The notes under the pieces are model-generated. The model worked only from the letters and a program-made list of their open reading frames with translations. It did no database searches and had not been told where the DNA came from. Position numbers and translations under genes: made by a program. From Compostimonas suwonensis (GTDB lineage: Bacteria; Actinomycetota; Actinomycetes; Actinomycetales; Microbacteriaceae): 64,000 bases of DNA. Numbering within the stretch: position 1 is the first letter of the stretch; every line of letters begins with the position of its first letter. The stretch covers positions 1 through 64,000 of the forward strand of contig NZ_PGFB01000003.1 in NCBI RefSeq assembly GCF_002797855.1, given 5' to 3'. This document shows positions 16,966 through 52,526 of this stretch, one piece after another.

Positions 16966-18618
16966 ATGGAACTGCACGGGATCGGTGTTGGACAGGGCGT
17001 GGCGATCGGGCCGGTCATCCTCATGCCGGAGCCTCTGCCCGAGCCGGTGGGCGCGCAGAGCGCTCTCTCGCCGGCGGAGGAGGGCGAGCGCGCGGCCGCG
17101 TCTCTCGCCGCCGTCGCCGACGAGCTGCGCGCTCGGGGCGAGCGTGCGGGAGGGACCGCGCAGGAGGTGCTCGACGCACAGGCGCTCATGGCGGCGGACC
17201 CGGCGCTGAGCGACGACGTGACCGCCCGGCTGCAGACGGGGATCACCGCAGAGCGCGCTGTGTTCGAGGCCTTCGCCGCCTTCCGCGAGCTGCTCGTAGG
17301 CATGGGCGGCTACATGGCCGAGCGCGCGACCGACCTCGACGACATCTCGCAGCGGGTCATCGCCGACCTCGGCGGGCTCCCCGCGCCGGGGGTGCCGGCC
17401 CCGGACCACCCCTTCGTGCTCGTCGCACGCGACCTCGCGCCGGCCGACACCGCCCTGCTCGACCTCGAGAAGGTGCTCGCCCTCGTGACGAGCGATGGCG
17501 GCCCCACCTCGCACACGGCGATCCTGGCGCGCGACAAGGCGATCGTCGCGATCGTCGGCGCCTCGGGCGCGCTCGCGCTGCACGACGGGCAGGAGGTGAT
17601 CGTCGACGCCGCGGCCGGCCGTGTGGTCGTCGACCCCTCCGCCGACGAGAAGGATGCCGCGCGCTCCGCCATCGCGGATCGCGCGGGCCGCGCCGAAGCG
17701 CCCGTGGGGCCCGGCCGTCTCGCCGACGGCACCGGGCTGCCGCTCCTGGCCAACCTCGGCTCGGCGGAGGGGGCCGCGGTCGCGATCGAGCGCGGAGCGG
17801 AGGGTGTCGGCCTCTTCCGCACCGAGTTCCTCTTCCTCGACGCGGCGATGGCGCCCACAATCGTCGAGCAGCAGGAGCAGTACACGGCCCTGCTCGCGCA
17901 GTTCCCCGGGCAGAAGGTCGTGGTGCGCGTGCTCGACGCGGGCGCCGACAAGCCGCTGCCCTTCCTCAACGACGGCGAGGAGGAGAACCCCGCCCTCGGC
18001 CTGCGCGGGCTGCGGGCGCTGCGAGCCAAGGAGGACATCCTGCGCGAGCAGCTCACGGCGCTCGCGAACGCCGACGCGGCCACCGACGCCGAGGTCTGGG
18101 TGATGGCGCCCATGGTCTCGACGGTGGAGGAGACGCGGTACTTCGTCGAGCTCGCCCACGAGCTGGGGCTCGCGATGGCGGGCGTGATGGTCGAGGTGCC
18201 GGCGTCGGCGCTTCTCGCGGACCGCATCCTCGCCGTCGCCGACTTCGTCTCGATCGGCACCAACGACCTCACGCAGTACACCCTCGCGGCCGACCGGATG
18301 CTCGGCTCGGTCGCCGGCTTCCAGGATCCGTGGCACCCGGCCGTGCTGAAGCTCGTCGGCGAGGTGGGCGCAGCAGGGGTCGCGACGGGCAAGCCCGTCG
18401 GCATCTGCGGGGAGGCCGCGGCCGATCCCGCCCTCGCCGTCGTGCTCGTCGGGCTGGGGGCCACGAGCCTGTCGATGTCGTCCGCCGCTCTCGGCGACGT
18501 GCGCACCGAGCTCGCCGGCGTGACGCTCGCCCAGGCGAAGGAGCTCGCGGCGGTCGCCCTGGCCGCCGACGGCGCACCGGAGGCCCGAGCCGCGGTCGCT
18601 GCGGCCGCCCGGGGCTAG
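16966..18618 (+). CDS. ptsI: Phosphoenolpyruvate-protein phosphotransferase (PTS enzyme I)
   Basis: 550 residues. The phosphorylated histidine lies in DGGPTSHTAILARDKAIVA (His about 183), the PEP-site signature is DFVSIGTNDLTQYTLAADRM, and the catalytic Cys is in PVGICGEAA (about 481). It starts the phosphotransferase relay from PEP to HPr. Of the in-frame starts at 16954, 16960 and 16966, only the ATG at 16966 has a well-spaced GAGG (16956-16959). No ptsH or EII gene is adjacent, so HPr must be encoded elsewhere. Confidence 0.95.
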   Translation: MELHGIGVGQGVAIGPVILMPEPLPEPVGAQSALSPAEEGERAAASLAAVADELRARGERAGGTAQEVLDAQALMAADPALSDDVTARLQTGITAERAVFEAFAAFRELLVGMGGYMAERATDLDDISQRVIADLGGLPAPGVPAPDHPFVLVARDLAPADTALLDLEKVLALVTSDGGPTSHTAILARDKAIVAIVGASGALALHDGQEVIVDAAAGRVVVDPSADEKDAARSAIADRAGRAEAPVGPGRLADGTGLPLLANLGSAEGAAVAIERGAEGVGLFRTEFLFLDAAMAPTIVEQQEQYTALLAQFPGQKVVVRVLDAGADKPLPFLNDGEEENPALGLRGLRALRAKEDILREQLTALANADAATDAEVWVMAPMVSTVEETRYFVELAHELGLAMAGVMVEVPASALLADRILAVADFVSIGTNDLTQYTLAADRMLGSVAGFQDPWHPAVLKLVGEVGAAGVATGKPVGICGEAAADPALAVVLVGLGATSLSMSSAALGDVRTELAGVTLAQAKELAAVALAADGAPEARAAVAAAARG

Positions 18619-18696
18619 GCCATCCGGCGGGTGCAGGGGAACACCGAGGCTCCGGGAGTACACTGACGGCCGCGCAGAACCCGAGTCGGAGGCACC

Positions 18697-18831
18697 ATGT
18701 CAGTCACAACGGAATTCTTGGCACAGACGGGTGTCAACACCCTCCCGATCATCATCGGCGTGGCCGCCGTCATCGCGATCGGCGTGCTGCTGCTCGTGGT
18801 CGGGCTCGTTCGACGTCGCGGGCAGCGCTGA
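18697..18831 (+). CDS. 44-residue single-pass membrane protein
   Basis: A small protein not previously recognised by me: MSVTTEFLAQTGVNTLPIII, a hydrophobic stretch (about residues 16-38) and a basic tail RRRGQR. GGAGG at 18688-18692 is ideally spaced. The tail layout, Leu-Pro followed by a hydrophobic helix and arginines, recalls a sortase anchor, but LPIII is not LPXTG and no signal peptide precedes it. A -10-like TACACT lies at 18659-18664. Followed 29 bp later by an 83-bp palindromic element. Confidence 0.7.
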   Translation: MSVTTEFLAQTGVNTLPIIIGVAAVIAIGVLLLVVGLVRRRGQR

Positions 18832-18860
18832 GTCGCGGCATCCGCTCGCTTCTCGTCGTT

Positions 18861-18943
18861 CTCAAAACGACGGAGATTTCGCTTAAACCGGGCCTTGTGA
18901 GCCTCAAATCCGCTCAAATCGGCAGAATGTCCGTCGTTTTGAG
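18861..18943. repeat. 83-bp palindromic element, family A copy 1
   Basis: The arm CTCAAAACGACGGA (18861-18874) is inverted as TCCGTCGTTTTGAG (18930-18943), enclosing a 55-bp core. A/T tracts recur about every 10.4 bp along the whole element. Same length and identical arms as the elements at 34120 and 48093, while the cores differ. It lies 29 bp after a stop codon. Confidence 0.9.
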
Positions 18944-19004
18944 TACGGGTGAGGGCGACGGAGGCGACTGCGATCGCGACGGAGGCTCCGCCGCCGGCGA
19001 ACGA

Positions 19005-19034
19005 TTGGCGAAAAGCGGGATTATCACATAAGAT
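19005..19034 (+). promoter_or_regulatory. Promoter of infA-rpmJ-rpsM-rpsK-rpoA-rplQ
   Basis: TTGGCG (19005-19010), 18 bp, TAAGAT (19029-19034). Five bases after the -10 comes the decamer TTTGGTGTCT (19040-19049), which also occurs at the identical position downstream of the rplM promoter. Confidence 0.7.
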
Positions 19035-19127
19035 TGCTCTTTGGTGTCTTGAGCGCGCCCGCGCGCGCCGTTTTCACCACTCCACCCGCACGATCAGCAA
19101 TCATTACTCTTGAGCGACAGTGAGGCT

Positions 19128-19349
19128 ATGGCCAAAAAAGACGGTGTCATCGAAATCGAAGGCTCTGTGGTCGAGGCTCTTCCCAACGCGATGTTTCGCG
19201 TTGAGTTGACCAACGGACACAAAGTTCTCGCCCACATCTCCGGCAAGATGCGTCAGCACTACATCCGCATTCTGCCCGAAGACCGGGTGATCGTAGAACT
19301 GAGCCCCTACGACTTGACCCGCGGCCGTATCGTCTACCGCTACAAGTAA
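19128..19349 (+). CDS. infA: Translation initiation factor IF-1
   Basis: 73 residues, the standard length, beginning [20 protein letters not shown] and ending [11 protein letters not shown]: the complete OB-fold. An in-frame TTG at 19110 would add six residues but homologues start at MAKKDG. It occupies the A-site region of the 30S during initiation. First gene of the alpha-type cluster. Confidence 0.97.
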
Positions 19350-19437
19350 CGAGCGCTGAAAAGTAACGGCCCGCTCCCGCGTCCGAACCCGGACATCACG
19401 GCGAGCGGGTACGAAGACAGCGAATGAAGGAACAGCT

Positions 19438-19554
19438 ATGAAGGTCAAGCCCAGCGTCAAGCCCATGTGCGAGCACTGCCGCGTCATCCGCCGCAACGGC
19501 AATGTCATGGTCATCTGCAAGAACAACCCGCGCCACAAACAGCGTCAGGGCTAG
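19438..19554 (+). CDS. rpmJ: 50S ribosomal protein L36 (zinc-binding form)
   Basis: 38 residues: [20 protein letters not shown], then [16 protein letters not shown]. The zinc ribbon C-x2-C...C-x4-H is intact, so this is the C+ paralogue used when zinc is sufficient. An A/G-rich stretch (GAAGGAACAG) gives the RBS. Between infA and rpsM as in most actinobacteria. Confidence 0.96.
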
Positions 19555-33589: not shown

Positions 33590-34084
33590 ATGGCGGTCGA
33601 GACCCGGCTCGTGACCGATCCGGATGCGATGGGCGCGCTCGGCGCGGAGCTCGCGGGGCGCCTGCGCGCGGGAGACCTCGTGGTGCTCACGGGGCCGCTC
33701 GGCGCCGGGAAGACGACGTTCACGCGCGGGCTCGGCGAGGGGCTCGGGGTGCGCGGCCCCGTCACGAGCCCCACCTTCGTGCTCGCACGCACGCATCCCA
33801 GCCTGCGGGGCGGCCCGGCGCTCGTGCACGTCGACGCCTACCGCCTGGGCAGCGCGGTGGAGCTCGACGACCTCGACATCGACTACGCCAACTCGGTGGT
33901 CGTGGTCGAGTGGGGCGCGGGAATGCTCGACGGCGTGAGCGACTCGTGGCTCGACATCCGCATCGAACGGCCCACGGGCGGCGTTGCAGGGGCAGCGGAT
34001 GCCGCGGCTCCCGAGCTCGCCGACGAGGAGCCGATCGAGCCCCGCACCGTGACCATCACCCCCGTCGGCCCCCGCTGGCTCTGA
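33590..34084 (+). CDS. tsaE: tRNA t6A synthesis ATPase TsaE
   Basis: 164 residues. P-loop GPLGAGKTTFTRGLGEGLG, then TSPTFVLARTHPS, HVDAYRLGSAVELDDL and VVVEWGAGMLDG: the YjeE family. The C-terminus (after about 130) is Ala/Glu-rich and not conserved. It works with TsaB-TsaD in threonylcarbamoyl-adenosine formation at tRNA position 37. Abuts alr without a gap. Confidence 0.94.
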   Translation: MAVETRLVTDPDAMGALGAELAGRLRAGDLVVLTGPLGAGKTTFTRGLGEGLGVRGPVTSPTFVLARTHPSLRGGPALVHVDAYRLGSAVELDDLDIDYANSVVVVEWGAGMLDGVSDSWLDIRIERPTGGVAGAADAAAPELADEEPIEPRTVTITPVGPRWL

Positions 34085-34119: not shown

Positions 34120-34202
34120 CTCAAAACGACGGAGATTTGGCCTTTTGGGGGCCGTTTCGGGCACTTCTGGGCATTTTGGGGCCGAATCTCCGTCGTTTTG
34201 AG
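34120..34202. repeat. 83-bp palindromic element, family A copy 2
   Basis: CTCAAAACGACGGA (34120-34133) and TCCGTCGTTTTGAG (34189-34202) around a 55-bp core. In this copy the arms extend to 18 perfect bp (GATT inside, AATC opposite). The core is a run of T-tracts and G-tracts spaced about 10 bp. 35 bp after the tsaE stop. Confidence 0.9.
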
Positions 34203-34254: not shown

Positions 34255-34872
34255 GTGCTTCTGGCGATCGATACCTCCGCGGGAACGAGTGTCGCCGTCG
34301 TCGACCGCGATGGAGGGGTGCTCAGCGAACGCACGGTCGACGACACCATGCGTCACGCCGAGGTCGTCGGAACCCTCATCGCGCAGGCGCTCGACGAGGT
34401 GGGCGTACGGCCCGCCGAGCTCTCGGGCGTCGCGACCGGCATGGGCCCCGGCCCGTTCACCGGGCTCCGCGTGGGCATCGCCGCCGCGCGCACCTTCGCG
34501 CTCGCCGTGGGCAGGCCGGTCGTTCCGATCGTGAGCCACGACGCCATCGCCTTCGGCGCCTACGCCTCCGGGCGCAGCGGACGCCTGCTCGTCGTCACCG
34601 ACGCGCGCCGGCGCGAGCTGTACTGGTCGCTCTACGAGGGCGCCGACGAGTTCGGTCTCCCGCTGCGCGTCGACGGCCCGGGTCTGGCGAAGCCCCCGGA
34701 GCTCGCGGAGGGCCCCGAGCGGCTCGACGCCCGGCTCGTCTCCGCGGGCGAGCTCGGCATGCTCGCCGAGCTGACCTTCCTGCACGAGCGCCCCTTCGCC
34801 GCCGACGAGGCGCTCTACCTGCGCTCGCCCGACGTGACGCCCTCCGCAGGCGCCAAGCGGGTGACGGCATGA
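34255..34872 (+). CDS. tsaB: tRNA t6A synthesis protein TsaB
   Basis: 205 residues from GTG 34255: MLLAIDTSAGTSVAVVDRDG, then GVATGMGPGPFTGLRVGIAA, the ASKHA-fold scaffold subunit (YeaZ). It pairs with TsaD. A long open frame back to 32899 is a shadow of alr and tsaE. ATGA overlap with rimI and GTGA overlap rimI-tsaD make a coupled three-gene unit. Confidence 0.95.
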   Translation: MLLAIDTSAGTSVAVVDRDGGVLSERTVDDTMRHAEVVGTLIAQALDEVGVRPAELSGVATGMGPGPFTGLRVGIAAARTFALAVGRPVVPIVSHDAIAFGAYASGRSGRLLVVTDARRRELYWSLYEGADEFGLPLRVDGPGLAKPPELAEGPERLDARLVSAGELGMLAELTFLHERPFAADEALYLRSPDVTPSAGAKRVTA

Positions 34873-42967: not shown

Positions 42968-48059
<5,092 letters not shown>

Positions 48060-48092: not shown

Positions 48093-48175
48093 CTCAAAAC
48101 GACGGAGATTGTGGCGAAATACGGGGTTTGCGGGCGTTTCTACCCGAAATCGGGCGGAAAGTCCGTCGTTTTGAG
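48093..48175. repeat. 83-bp palindromic element, family A copy 3
   Basis: CTCAAAACGACGGA (48093-48106) and TCCGTCGTTTTGAG (48162-48175) around 55 bp. Core A/T tracts start at core positions 2, 11, 21, 31, 41 and 52. 33 bp after the guaB stop. Confidence 0.9.
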
Positions 48176-48227: not shown

Positions 48228-49349
48228 GTGACTGAGATTGAGATCGGCCGTGCCAAGCGCGGTCGCCGCGTGTACGCATTCGACGACATCGCCATCGTTC
48301 CGAGCCGCCGCACGAGAGACCCGCAAGACGTCTCCGTGAACTGGTCGATCGATGCGTTCCAGTTCGACATCCCCTTCCTCGCGGCCCCCATGGACTCCGT
48401 CGTCTCGCCGACGACCGCCATCATGATGGGCCAGCTCGGCGGGCTCGGAGTGCTCGACCTCGAAGGCCTGTGGACCCGCTACGAGAACCCCGAGCCGCTG
48501 CTGGCCGAGATCCGCTCGCTGCCCGAAGACGCCGCGACGAGCCGGATGCAGCAGATGTACGCCGAGCCGATCAAGCCCGAGCTCGTCACCGCCCGCATCG
48601 CCGAGATCCGCGCCGCCGGCGTCACCGTCGCCGGCTCGCTCTCGCCGCAGCGCACCCAGGAGCTCTACCAGACGGTCGTGGCGGCGGGCGTCGACCTCTT
48701 CGTCATCCGCGGCACGACCGTGTCGGCCGAGCACGTCTCGAAGAACTCGGAGCCGCTCAATCTCAAGGAGTTCATCTACGAGCTCGACGTGCCCGTGATC
48801 GTGGGCGGCGCCGCCACCTATACGGCGGCGCTGCACCTCATGCGCACGGGCGCGGCAGGCGTGCTCGTCGGCTTCGGGGGCGGCGCGGCGTCGACGACAC
48901 GCGCGGCGCTCGGCATCCACGCGCCCATGGCGACGGCGGTGGCGGATGTCGCGGGCGCACGTCGCGACTACATGGACGAGTCGGGCGGCCGCTACGTGCA
49001 CGTCATCGCCGACGGCGGACTCGGAAGCTCGGGCGACATCGTCAAGGCGATCGCCTGCGGAGCCGACGCCGTGATGCTCGGCTCGACTCTCGCCCGCGCG
49101 ACCGACGCACCCGGGGGCGGCTACCACTGGGGGCCCGAGGCCCACCACGCGCAGCTGCCCCGCGGCAACCGCGTGCGGGTCGGGACGATCGCGCCGCTCG
49201 AGGAGATCCTCTACGGCCCGGCGCCCGTCGCCGACGGCACAGCCAACCTCGTGGGCGCCCTGCGGCGCTCGATGGCGACGACCGGATACTCCGACCTCAA
49301 GGAGTTCCAGCGCGTCGAAGTGGTTGTGGCGCCTTACCCGGTGCATTAG
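48228..49349 (+). CDS. guaB3: GuaB3-family IMP dehydrogenase-related protein
   Basis: 373 residues from GTG 48228. IMPDH/GMPR barrel without CBS domains: MTEIEIGRAKRGRRVYAFDD, FLAAPMDSVVSPTTAIMMGQ, HVIADGGLGSSGDIVKAIAC. At the position of the catalytic Cys loop (GSICTTR in GuaB) it reads GFGGGAASTTR, with no cysteine, so ordinary IMPDH or GMP reductase chemistry is unlikely. The family is conserved beside guaB in actinobacteria, with an unsettled role. Confidence 0.92.
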   Translation: MTEIEIGRAKRGRRVYAFDDIAIVPSRRTRDPQDVSVNWSIDAFQFDIPFLAAPMDSVVSPTTAIMMGQLGGLGVLDLEGLWTRYENPEPLLAEIRSLPEDAATSRMQQMYAEPIKPELVTARIAEIRAAGVTVAGSLSPQRTQELYQTVVAAGVDLFVIRGTTVSAEHVSKNSEPLNLKEFIYELDVPVIVGGAATYTAALHLMRTGAAGVLVGFGGGAASTTRAALGIHAPMATAVADVAGARRDYMDESGGRYVHVIADGGLGSSGDIVKAIACGADAVMLGSTLARATDAPGGGYHWGPEAHHAQLPRGNRVRVGTIAPLEEILYGPAPVADGTANLVGALRRSMATTGYSDLKEFQRVEVVVAPYPVH

Positions 49350-51145: not shown

Positions 51146-51163
51146 CCGGCTCGCGTTCTGCGT

Positions 51164-51229
51164 CGAGCGCGGGTTTGTTCGCGAGCGACGTGCCTCGAAG
51201 GGGCGCGGCGGCGAACAAACCCGCGCTCG
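51164..51229. repeat. 66-bp palindromic element, family B copy 1
   Basis: The 19-bp arm CGAGCGCGGGTTTGTTCGC (51164-51182) is perfectly inverted at 51211-51229, with a 28-bp core. 18 bp after the glpD stop. A similar element lies at 52322-52387. Confidence 0.9.
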
Positions 51230-51273
51230 GCGGCAATCCCGCGCATCGGGCGGCAGGGTGCGACCGAGCGAGC

Positions 51274-52218: not shown

Positions 52219-52526
52219 ACGACGATCGTCGGCGGGGCAGGAGGACCGGGAGACTCTCCGGTGCGGATCGGTGCACTCTCGCGGCATCCACAGCTCGGCC
52301 GTGCGGAGGATCGCATCCCGTCGAGCGCGGGTTTGTTCGCGGGCGACGAGCTTCGAGGGCCGGCGCTCGCGAACAAACCCGCGCTCGACGCAAAACAGGG
52401 GGCGGAGGGGGCGGAGAGGCAGGCGCGAGGAACAAACGGCGCTCGCCGTGGGCGAACCGCGGACGAGTCGTGCCGGGGCTTCGGTAGAATAGACGTACTG
52501 CCCACAAACCAGGAGGAGCCCTCAGC
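52219..52526. other. Divergent intergenic region with family B element and khtT-like promoter
   Basis: 308 bp. It holds the second family B copy, a degraded fragment (GAGGAACAAACGGCGCTCG near 52429-52447), and TAGAAT (52485-52490) as a -10 for the downstream gene. No gene. Confidence 0.55.
52320..52389. repeat. 66-70-bp palindromic element, family B copy 2
   Basis: The same 19-bp arms as copy 1 (52322-52340 and 52369-52387), here extended to 22 perfect bp (52320-52341 and 52368-52389). The core is similar but not identical to copy 1. Unlike the other palindromes it is not just after a stop codon; it lies about 100 bp upstream of the minus-strand gene. Confidence 0.9.

Follow-up and report, generated by a model that had tools for sequence, protein, structure and literature searches.

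We asked whether the A/T tracts that recur at about the DNA helical repeat within an 83-bp element of Compostimonas suwonensis are a property of the double helix, as would be expected of a site at which DNA is bent or wrapped, or belong to an RNA structure such as a terminator. Three copies of the element are present in the 64,000-nucleotide stretch of contig NZ_PGFB01000003.1 analysed here (positions 1 to 64,000, referred to below as the window). All three are exactly 83 bp long with perfect 14-bp inverted ends and lie between genes transcribed from the same strand, and in two of the three the neighbours have related domains (TsaE and TsaD, and two IMPDH domains). The features of the element in the window are as follows.

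18861..18943, unstranded: element copy 1, 83 bp, flanked by a small called ORF (18718-18831) and infA (19128-19349)
18861..18874, minus strand: left end motif of copy 1, TCCGTCGTTTTGAG on the minus strand
18930..18943, plus strand: right end motif of copy 1, TCCGTCGTTTTGAG
18875..18929, unstranded: interior of copy 1, 55 bp
18876-78, 18886-88, 18896-98, 18906-08, 18916-18 and 18926-28: the family A/T tracts (element positions 16-18, 26-28, 36-38, 46-48, 56-58 and 66-68) mapped on copy 1
18902: dyad of copy 1 (element position 42)
18816..18860, plus strand: left flank of copy 1, 45 bp, where the family trend is C > G read inward
18944..18988, minus strand: right flank of copy 1, 45 bp, where the family trend is C > G read inward on the minus strand
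34120..34202, unstranded: element copy 2, between a TsaE-domain gene (33590-34084) and a TsaD-domain gene (34255-34872)
48093..48175, unstranded: element copy 3, between an IMP dehydrogenase gene (46557-48059) and a second IMPDH-domain gene (48228-49349)

A family of elements with near-invariant ends and fixed length

The window copies are members of a family of about 100 elements of 83 bp in the 3.88-Mb, 10-contig C. suwonensis genome, with near-invariant ends (CTCAAAACGACGGA...TCCGTCGTTTTGAG, positions 1-14 and 70-83). Allowing up to one mismatch, the 14-bp end has 109 forward and 104 reverse matches genome-wide and its reversed control has none, and there are 59 exact pairs of the form CTCAAAACGACGGA-N40..70-TCCGTCGTTTTGAG. 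Among 100 exact end 14-mers listed, which come from contigs C1 to C3 only, every one is either an element end or a tandem end beside a copy, and none marks a candidate autonomous partner sharing these ends. Pairs of the inner 8-mers ACGACGGA/TCCGTCGT number 102 both at gaps of 48-62 bp and at gaps of 54-56 bp (cores of 64-78 bp and 70-72 bp, respectively), and because narrowing the gap loses none of them, the core is 70-72 bp in all 102. At a fixed gap of 55 bp, 95 copies have at most three mismatches in 18 positions (control 0), and 93 forward and 91 reverse matches have at most one mismatch in 17 (centre base included; control 0); at the exact length there is thus almost no tail of decayed copies.

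We analysed 97 of the ~102 copies (92 with a core of 71 bp, four with 72 bp and one with 70 bp), two chance matches at C1:553655 and C4:330558 having been dropped from an initial 99; C1:268027, C2:564233 and three other copies lie outside this set. The profile, phasing, bend, nearest-interior, flank-stem, tandem-end and tract-fit analyses based on 92 copies omit the five with a 70- or 72-bp core, and 64 copies of 83 bp align without gaps. The copies are unevenly spread, with 39 of 99 known copies on contig C1 and 10 on C2 (22 expected on each); later contigs may hold a few copies beyond those listed.

Ten-base phasing of A/T and G/C

Alignment of the 92 copies over the 71-bp core and 120-bp flanks reveals peaks of A/T fraction at element positions 4-7, 16-18, 26-28, 36-38, 46-48, 56-58, 66-68 and 77-80, which match to within ~1.5 bp the tract centres (5.5, 17, 25-26, 36-37, 46-47, 56-57, 67 and 78.5) that the initial annotation had read from the three window copies. 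The troughs lie near 22, 32, 42, 52 and 62, the profile is symmetric about 42, and the comb drops to background ~2 bp beyond the element borders. The centroids of the six inner tracts are at 16.7, 26.9, 36.9, 47.0, 57.1 and 67.3. A mean spacing of 10.4 bp had also been given, and this holds over all seven intervals, but not for the free interior (19-65), which fits a period of 10.04 bp (bootstrap 9.98-10.08); the fitted period is 9.90 bp in 15-69 and 10.30 bp in 1-83, a range that takes in the wider 11.5-bp step to each end tract.

Period-10 power in positions 15-69 is 149.9, compared with 20.9 in dinucleotide shuffles, and each of the 92 copies is individually significant (p<0.05, 200 shuffles each) with a phase coherence of R=0.99. 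The 10-bp periodicity anticipated on aligning many copies is therefore present, and it is much stronger than is visible from the three window copies. Restricting the range to 19-65, and so leaving out the near-invariant tracts, gives a coherence of R=0.98 with 89 of the 92 copies significant; in the flanks it is only R=0.10. Copy 1 at 18861 is among the less regular copies and has a G at element position 37.

Counted from the dyad, A/T (W) falls at 5, 15 and 25, and G/C (S) at 0, 10 and 20. The same spacing is the rule for nucleosome positioning sequences, with W at ±5, 15 and 25 and S at 0, 10 and 20 from the dyad and a period near 10; the element differs from these in being 83 bp long, in having near-invariant end motifs, and in being bacterial. 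GGC/GCC is in antiphase to the A/T tracts (205 of 460 S peaks are GGC or GCC), and 85% of the WW steps in the four free tracts are AA/TT and 5% are TA (92 copies). The orientation of the A-tracts is near-independent from one tract to another, with the exception of tracts 37 and 47 (r=-0.33). Interior identity between copies averages 0.44 and W/S agreement is 0.72, where 0.53 is expected from composition (64 copies), confirming the earlier observation that A-runs and T-runs replace each other while the phase is kept. A and T are interchangeable in the interior; the W/S pattern and the length are kept and the letters are largely free. That the signal belongs to the double helix, with W and S phased at ~10 bp and confined to the element, is supported by this analysis.

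Modelled curvature and pairing of the interior

The intrinsic curvature that had been predicted from the tracts is reproduced by a wedge model using the Bolshoy parameters, which gives a bend of 53 deg over 55 bp, compared with 22 deg in mononucleotide shuffles and 18 deg in the flanks, and 70 of the 92 copies lie above the 95th percentile of the shuffles. Such a modelled static bend is far below a full turn, and a protein would therefore have to do most of the bending work.

The inverted ends could alternatively function in RNA as a bidirectional intrinsic terminator, with a GC stem (CGACGGA/TCCGTCG) and the TTTT that follows halting polymerase in both directions and the interior serving as a mere loop. 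The stem formed by the paired ends is real, being a perfect 14 bp with AAAA/TTTT outside its GC part, and the predicted folding energy of copy 1 is -33.6 kcal/mol (z=-4.9); a location mostly at gene 3' ends is also as expected of a terminator. However, the end letters are near-invariant although a stem requires pairing only, and a loop of strict 55-nt length with a 10-bp W/S phasing is left unexplained. Intrinsic terminators have a short-loop GC hairpin and a U-tract, and here the ends enclose a loop of 55 nt; a terminator scan of 18300-19500 around copy 1 found none, and Rfam had no match at gathering scores in the whole window. The left and right halves of the interior match at 13.5 of 27 pairs when taken from one copy and at 13.0 when taken from different copies (p=0.05). 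The positions slightly in excess are pairs 20/64, 21/63 and 38/46, and because the halves of a copy hardly covary the interior forms no conserved hairpin. A conserved interior hairpin was accordingly rejected, the excess being nearly but not quite zero. In three of the 64 copies, however, 23 or 24 of the 27 inner positions pair, making these near-perfect hairpins. Extension of the stem into the flanks is slight (p=0.016 for positions 1-2 outward, p=0.048 for 3-12, and not significant farther out), and in three of 92 copies the stem is at least 6 bp longer. We consider a terminator of this type improbable, and for the interior, whose halves hardly covary even though the end stem is real, we agree with the initial annotation in setting the element apart from an RNA-only terminator.

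Relatives in other genomes

A scan of contigs for AAAACGACGGA/TCCGTCGTTTT pairs identified relatives in Microbacteriaceae bacterium FW021_bin.57, Microbacterium sp. STN6 and Herbiconiux sp. nzgw89, and a single match in Bosea. The Bosea match (L063, 82 bp, one copy) fits chance, with ~0.3 expected in the 257-Gb scan, and was not used. The full 14-mer pair is present in one of 299 family genomes, that of C. suwonensis itself, and the 8-mer pair is present in 50 of 398 genomes, many of which have just one match, as might arise by chance; a few genomes likewise have one match to the reversed control. At least six pairs per genome are found in genera g9, g12, g17, g69, g74 and g82, making seven genera with that of C. 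suwonensis, with g9, g69 and g82 being identified by pair counts alone. Among 395 other genomes of the order, sampled to reach beyond the family, nine have one match each, similar to chance coding matches, and one of these nine belongs to the same family.

In genus g12 the 71-bp core is found again and the rest of the interior is different from that of C. suwonensis. All 51 g12 cores used have an internal CGACGGA at core positions 31-37 (with up to two mismatches), which occurs in both orientations and is separated by 29 bp from the motif at one of the ends. These cores are 25 of the 39 listed for genome G287, from which 11 near-copies of one subfamily and three of other lengths were dropped, and 26 of the 29 listed 71-bp cores in other g12 genomes (the three from G416 being omitted), where the copy totals are higher than those listed. 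The A/T phase in g12 equals that in C. suwonensis (6.7 and 6.5 bp, compared with 7.0 bp; R of 0.96 and 0.86), and after removal of the internal motif it is 7.3 and 7.0 in the left part and 6.5 and 6.8 in the right (R of 0.65-0.94). In the six STN6 copies the distances of W from the dyad are 4-5, 15-16 and 25, and phasing is weaker or less clear in FW021 (six copies) and Herbiconiux (seven copies). The G287 subfamily of near-identical elements occurs in both orientations, suggestive of recent spread in that genome.

At three loci in relatives the genes to the left and right are homologous to those around a C. suwonensis copy: L178 and L122, both in G287, which correspond to C1:390565 and C4:448880/450058, respectively, and L107 in G291, which corresponds to C3:404003. 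The interior of L178 is 0.34 identical to its counterpart with a W/S agreement of 0.68, and that of L122 is 0.26 or 0.34 identical with an agreement of 0.55 or 0.64. The 48 relative loci, some of them overlapping, were compared with the C. suwonensis stretches around its own copies only, and the comparison therefore reports on shared places and not on how often a place is empty.

Genomic context

Gene positions were assigned with a home-made gene caller (87% coding) and place 92 of 97 copies between genes, with 31 in convergent, 49 in tandem and 12 in divergent intervals. Gaps of at least 83 bp include 29 convergent, 49 tandem and 12 divergent gaps with a copy, and 27, 72 and 41, respectively, without one, an enrichment of copies in convergent over divergent gaps (p=0.003) within stretches that were themselves picked around copies. 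Where a copy faces a gene 3' end (111 sides) the two are a median of 46 bp apart, and where it faces a 5' end (73 sides) the median is 109 bp. One 84-bp copy (C1:534544-534627; L070) lies inside an Nramp/MntH-like ORF whose frame stays open, and the stretch around it aligns poorly with the STN6 and Herbiconiux homologues.

Read inward, both 45-bp flanks have more C than G in 89 of 97 copies, compared with 15 of 131 control gaps. In G287, STN6, FW021 and Herbiconiux, for which the counts are without control gaps, the bias has the same sign but is weaker. Rho-utilisation (rut) sites are C-rich, G-poor RNA, and RNA of this composition would run just ahead of the element in both directions, with C exceeding G upstream of the stop region as in Rho-dependent terminators. 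The flanks differ from rut sites in that the C>G bias is also present on the 5' sides of genes; no sense transcript comes in there, and the bias on those sides goes unexplained by a pure termination model.

Copying and decay

The interiors that are most alike (0.87 and 0.79 identity) have unrelated flanks, which indicates that the copied unit is the 83-bp element itself. Outside 17 of the 92 copies there are extra end motifs, 27 in the same orientation as the adjoining end and two in the opposite orientation (control 1), often in steps of 14-23 bp (for example at C4:357826, C8:92139, C1:516926 and C1:453062).

With about 100 mostly extragenic copies, conserved inverted ends, a variable spacer and a preferred fixed spacing, the family resembles the REPINs. 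In the GI REPINs of SBW25 the first residues are 71 bp apart, according to the available text of PMC3116915, and in the element the first residues of the 14-mers are 69 bp apart and the core is 71 bp. REPINs are described there as coming with a RAYT gene and a hairpin, and 'A-tract' is nowhere mentioned in that text; for the element, by contrast, no RAYT gene was found, and it pairs at its ends but hardly covaries across a spacer that is not complementary, and has a 10-bp A/T phasing. A search for RAYT (Y1_Tnp, PF01797) found none in the C. suwonensis genome, with a positive E. coli control, and none in 14 other genomes with pairs (one 84% complete and three of untold completeness); a RAYT-driven REPIN was therefore rejected.

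The broader proposal of a REPIN- or MITE-like miniature mobile element is that a transposase reads the ends, the variable spacer bends so that the ends meet, and parasitic copies persist. The GI REPIN-like plan (PMC3116915), the terminal inverted repeats that MITEs also have, and the copying of the 83-bp unit among unrelated flanks would all fit, as would the G287 subfamily, the 84-bp copy within the Nramp/MntH-like ORF and a slight excess of 2-bp direct repeats next to the ends (k=2, offset 0; 15 compared with 9.6 expected in 92 copies). For longer repeats there are no matches among the 92 copies at k=5, 6, 8 and 9, the lengths tested, two at k=4 (offset 4, 0.24 expected), and k=3 is near expectation except for 3 compared with 1.15 at offset 3. 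No target-site duplication of at least 5 bp was thus found at these lengths, and there is no clear one of 3 bp or more. Selfish elements leave fossils, whereas decayed copies are nearly absent here at the exact length; the interiors are near-saturated yet every copy is phased, and L178, L107 and L122, found by searching near C. suwonensis copies only, share both neighbours with those copies. The combination of near-saturated interiors with kept phase and ends points to selection on each copy over a dying transposon family, and we regard a mobile element, for which no RAYT gene was found in the genomes searched, as a doubtful explanation.

CGTC-tagged REPs are likewise dispersed between convergent and same-strand genes without a dedicated transposase, and the element ends happen to contain CGTC as these do. 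They are small palindromes with a stem of 8-9 bp and a loop of 4-5 bp (PMC3733652, Di Nocera 2013), and 'Actinobacteria' has no occurrence in the main text of that article. GTAG/CGTC REPs are 20-40 bp palindromes with their own stem-loop and a tagged end, and on inspection the 14-mer CTCAAAACGACGGA has no stem-loop of its own.

A candidate nucleoprotein site at gene ends

We propose, with roughly even confidence, that the element is a nucleoprotein site of fixed geometry, with a protein on both ends and the DNA between them bent or wrapped, acting as a two-way boundary at genes. From the pattern of phasing, ends and location we infer that a protein binds, that the DNA is bent or wrapped and that the complex serves as a boundary. 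A sequence-specific protein would bind the two inverted AAACGACGGA ends, and the ~55 bp between them would curve tightly to form a loop or roughly a single wrap, the phasing suggesting that A/T minor grooves face in and GGC/GCC out. The third motif copy in g12, 29 bp from one end or about three 10-bp turns, would add a contact on nearly the same face. Such a complex may slow polymerase and hold torsion, so forming a boundary in both directions, and Rho could load on the incoming C-rich RNA. No binding protein for the element was found. A two-way boundary is the most likely role because the elements mostly follow gene 3' ends and the sequence leading into them from either direction is C-rich and G-poor. 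Against this role, a strong terminator would be costly between same-strand genes of related domains and all three window copies have same-strand neighbours; 12 of 97 copies lie between divergent genes, and the C>G tracts are found on 5' sides too.

Of the proteins that read 10-bp G/C phasing, the best known is gyrase, which the initial annotation had considered as a wrapping protein. It prefers G/C variation phased at 10 bp in which the AT side is turned towards the enzyme, and it acts at sites in BIME-2 and beyond the ends of highly transcribed operons (PMC6379681); the element resembles these in its downstream or intergenic place and in a G/C phasing that can be read as wrapping. The geometry is nonetheless unlike that of the element. 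In E. coli the motif spans 130 bp, of which two arms of 47 bp are periodic and the 36-bp centre is non-periodic (PMC6379681), and it has no counterpart of the 14-bp near-invariant ends, whereas the element is periodic through its dyad and its phasing stops at 83 bp. Gyrase as the specific reader is thus not borne out, and a gyrase wrapping site downstream of genes, comparable to strong gyrase sites or BIME-2, is in our view very improbable. The reader may instead be a nucleoid-type protein or some other wrapping protein with sequence specificity.

A more specific form of the nucleoprotein site is possible but tentative: a dedicated protein might grip the ends and wind the 83 bp, read as a mechanical code of A/T and G/C at 10.0 bp per turn, into a nucleosome-like unit. 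About 100 such particles per chromosome, mostly at gene ends, might then set transcriptional and topological boundaries in Microbacteriaceae-like bacteria. If this is true, selection would act on DNA mechanics and not on letters at ~100 bacterial sites of near-exact length, and encoded, positioned DNA wrapping at bacterial gene ends would become testable, with the near-invariant ends as ready bait for the putative protein and the two genera with different interiors as natural controls. Among the matches listed for end sequences, intergenic repeats and phased A-tracts, the open-licence literature has no description of such elements; a dispersed plan with inverted ends is known, and a mechanical code of near-exact length appears to be new as far as the literature was searched.

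The window also contains a different repeat family, comprising 88-bp inverted repeats at 51146-51233 and 52318-52405 that are 82% complementary and ~1.1 kb apart, each of which is itself hairpin-like (GCGCGGGTTTGTTCGC...GCGAACAAACCCGCGC).
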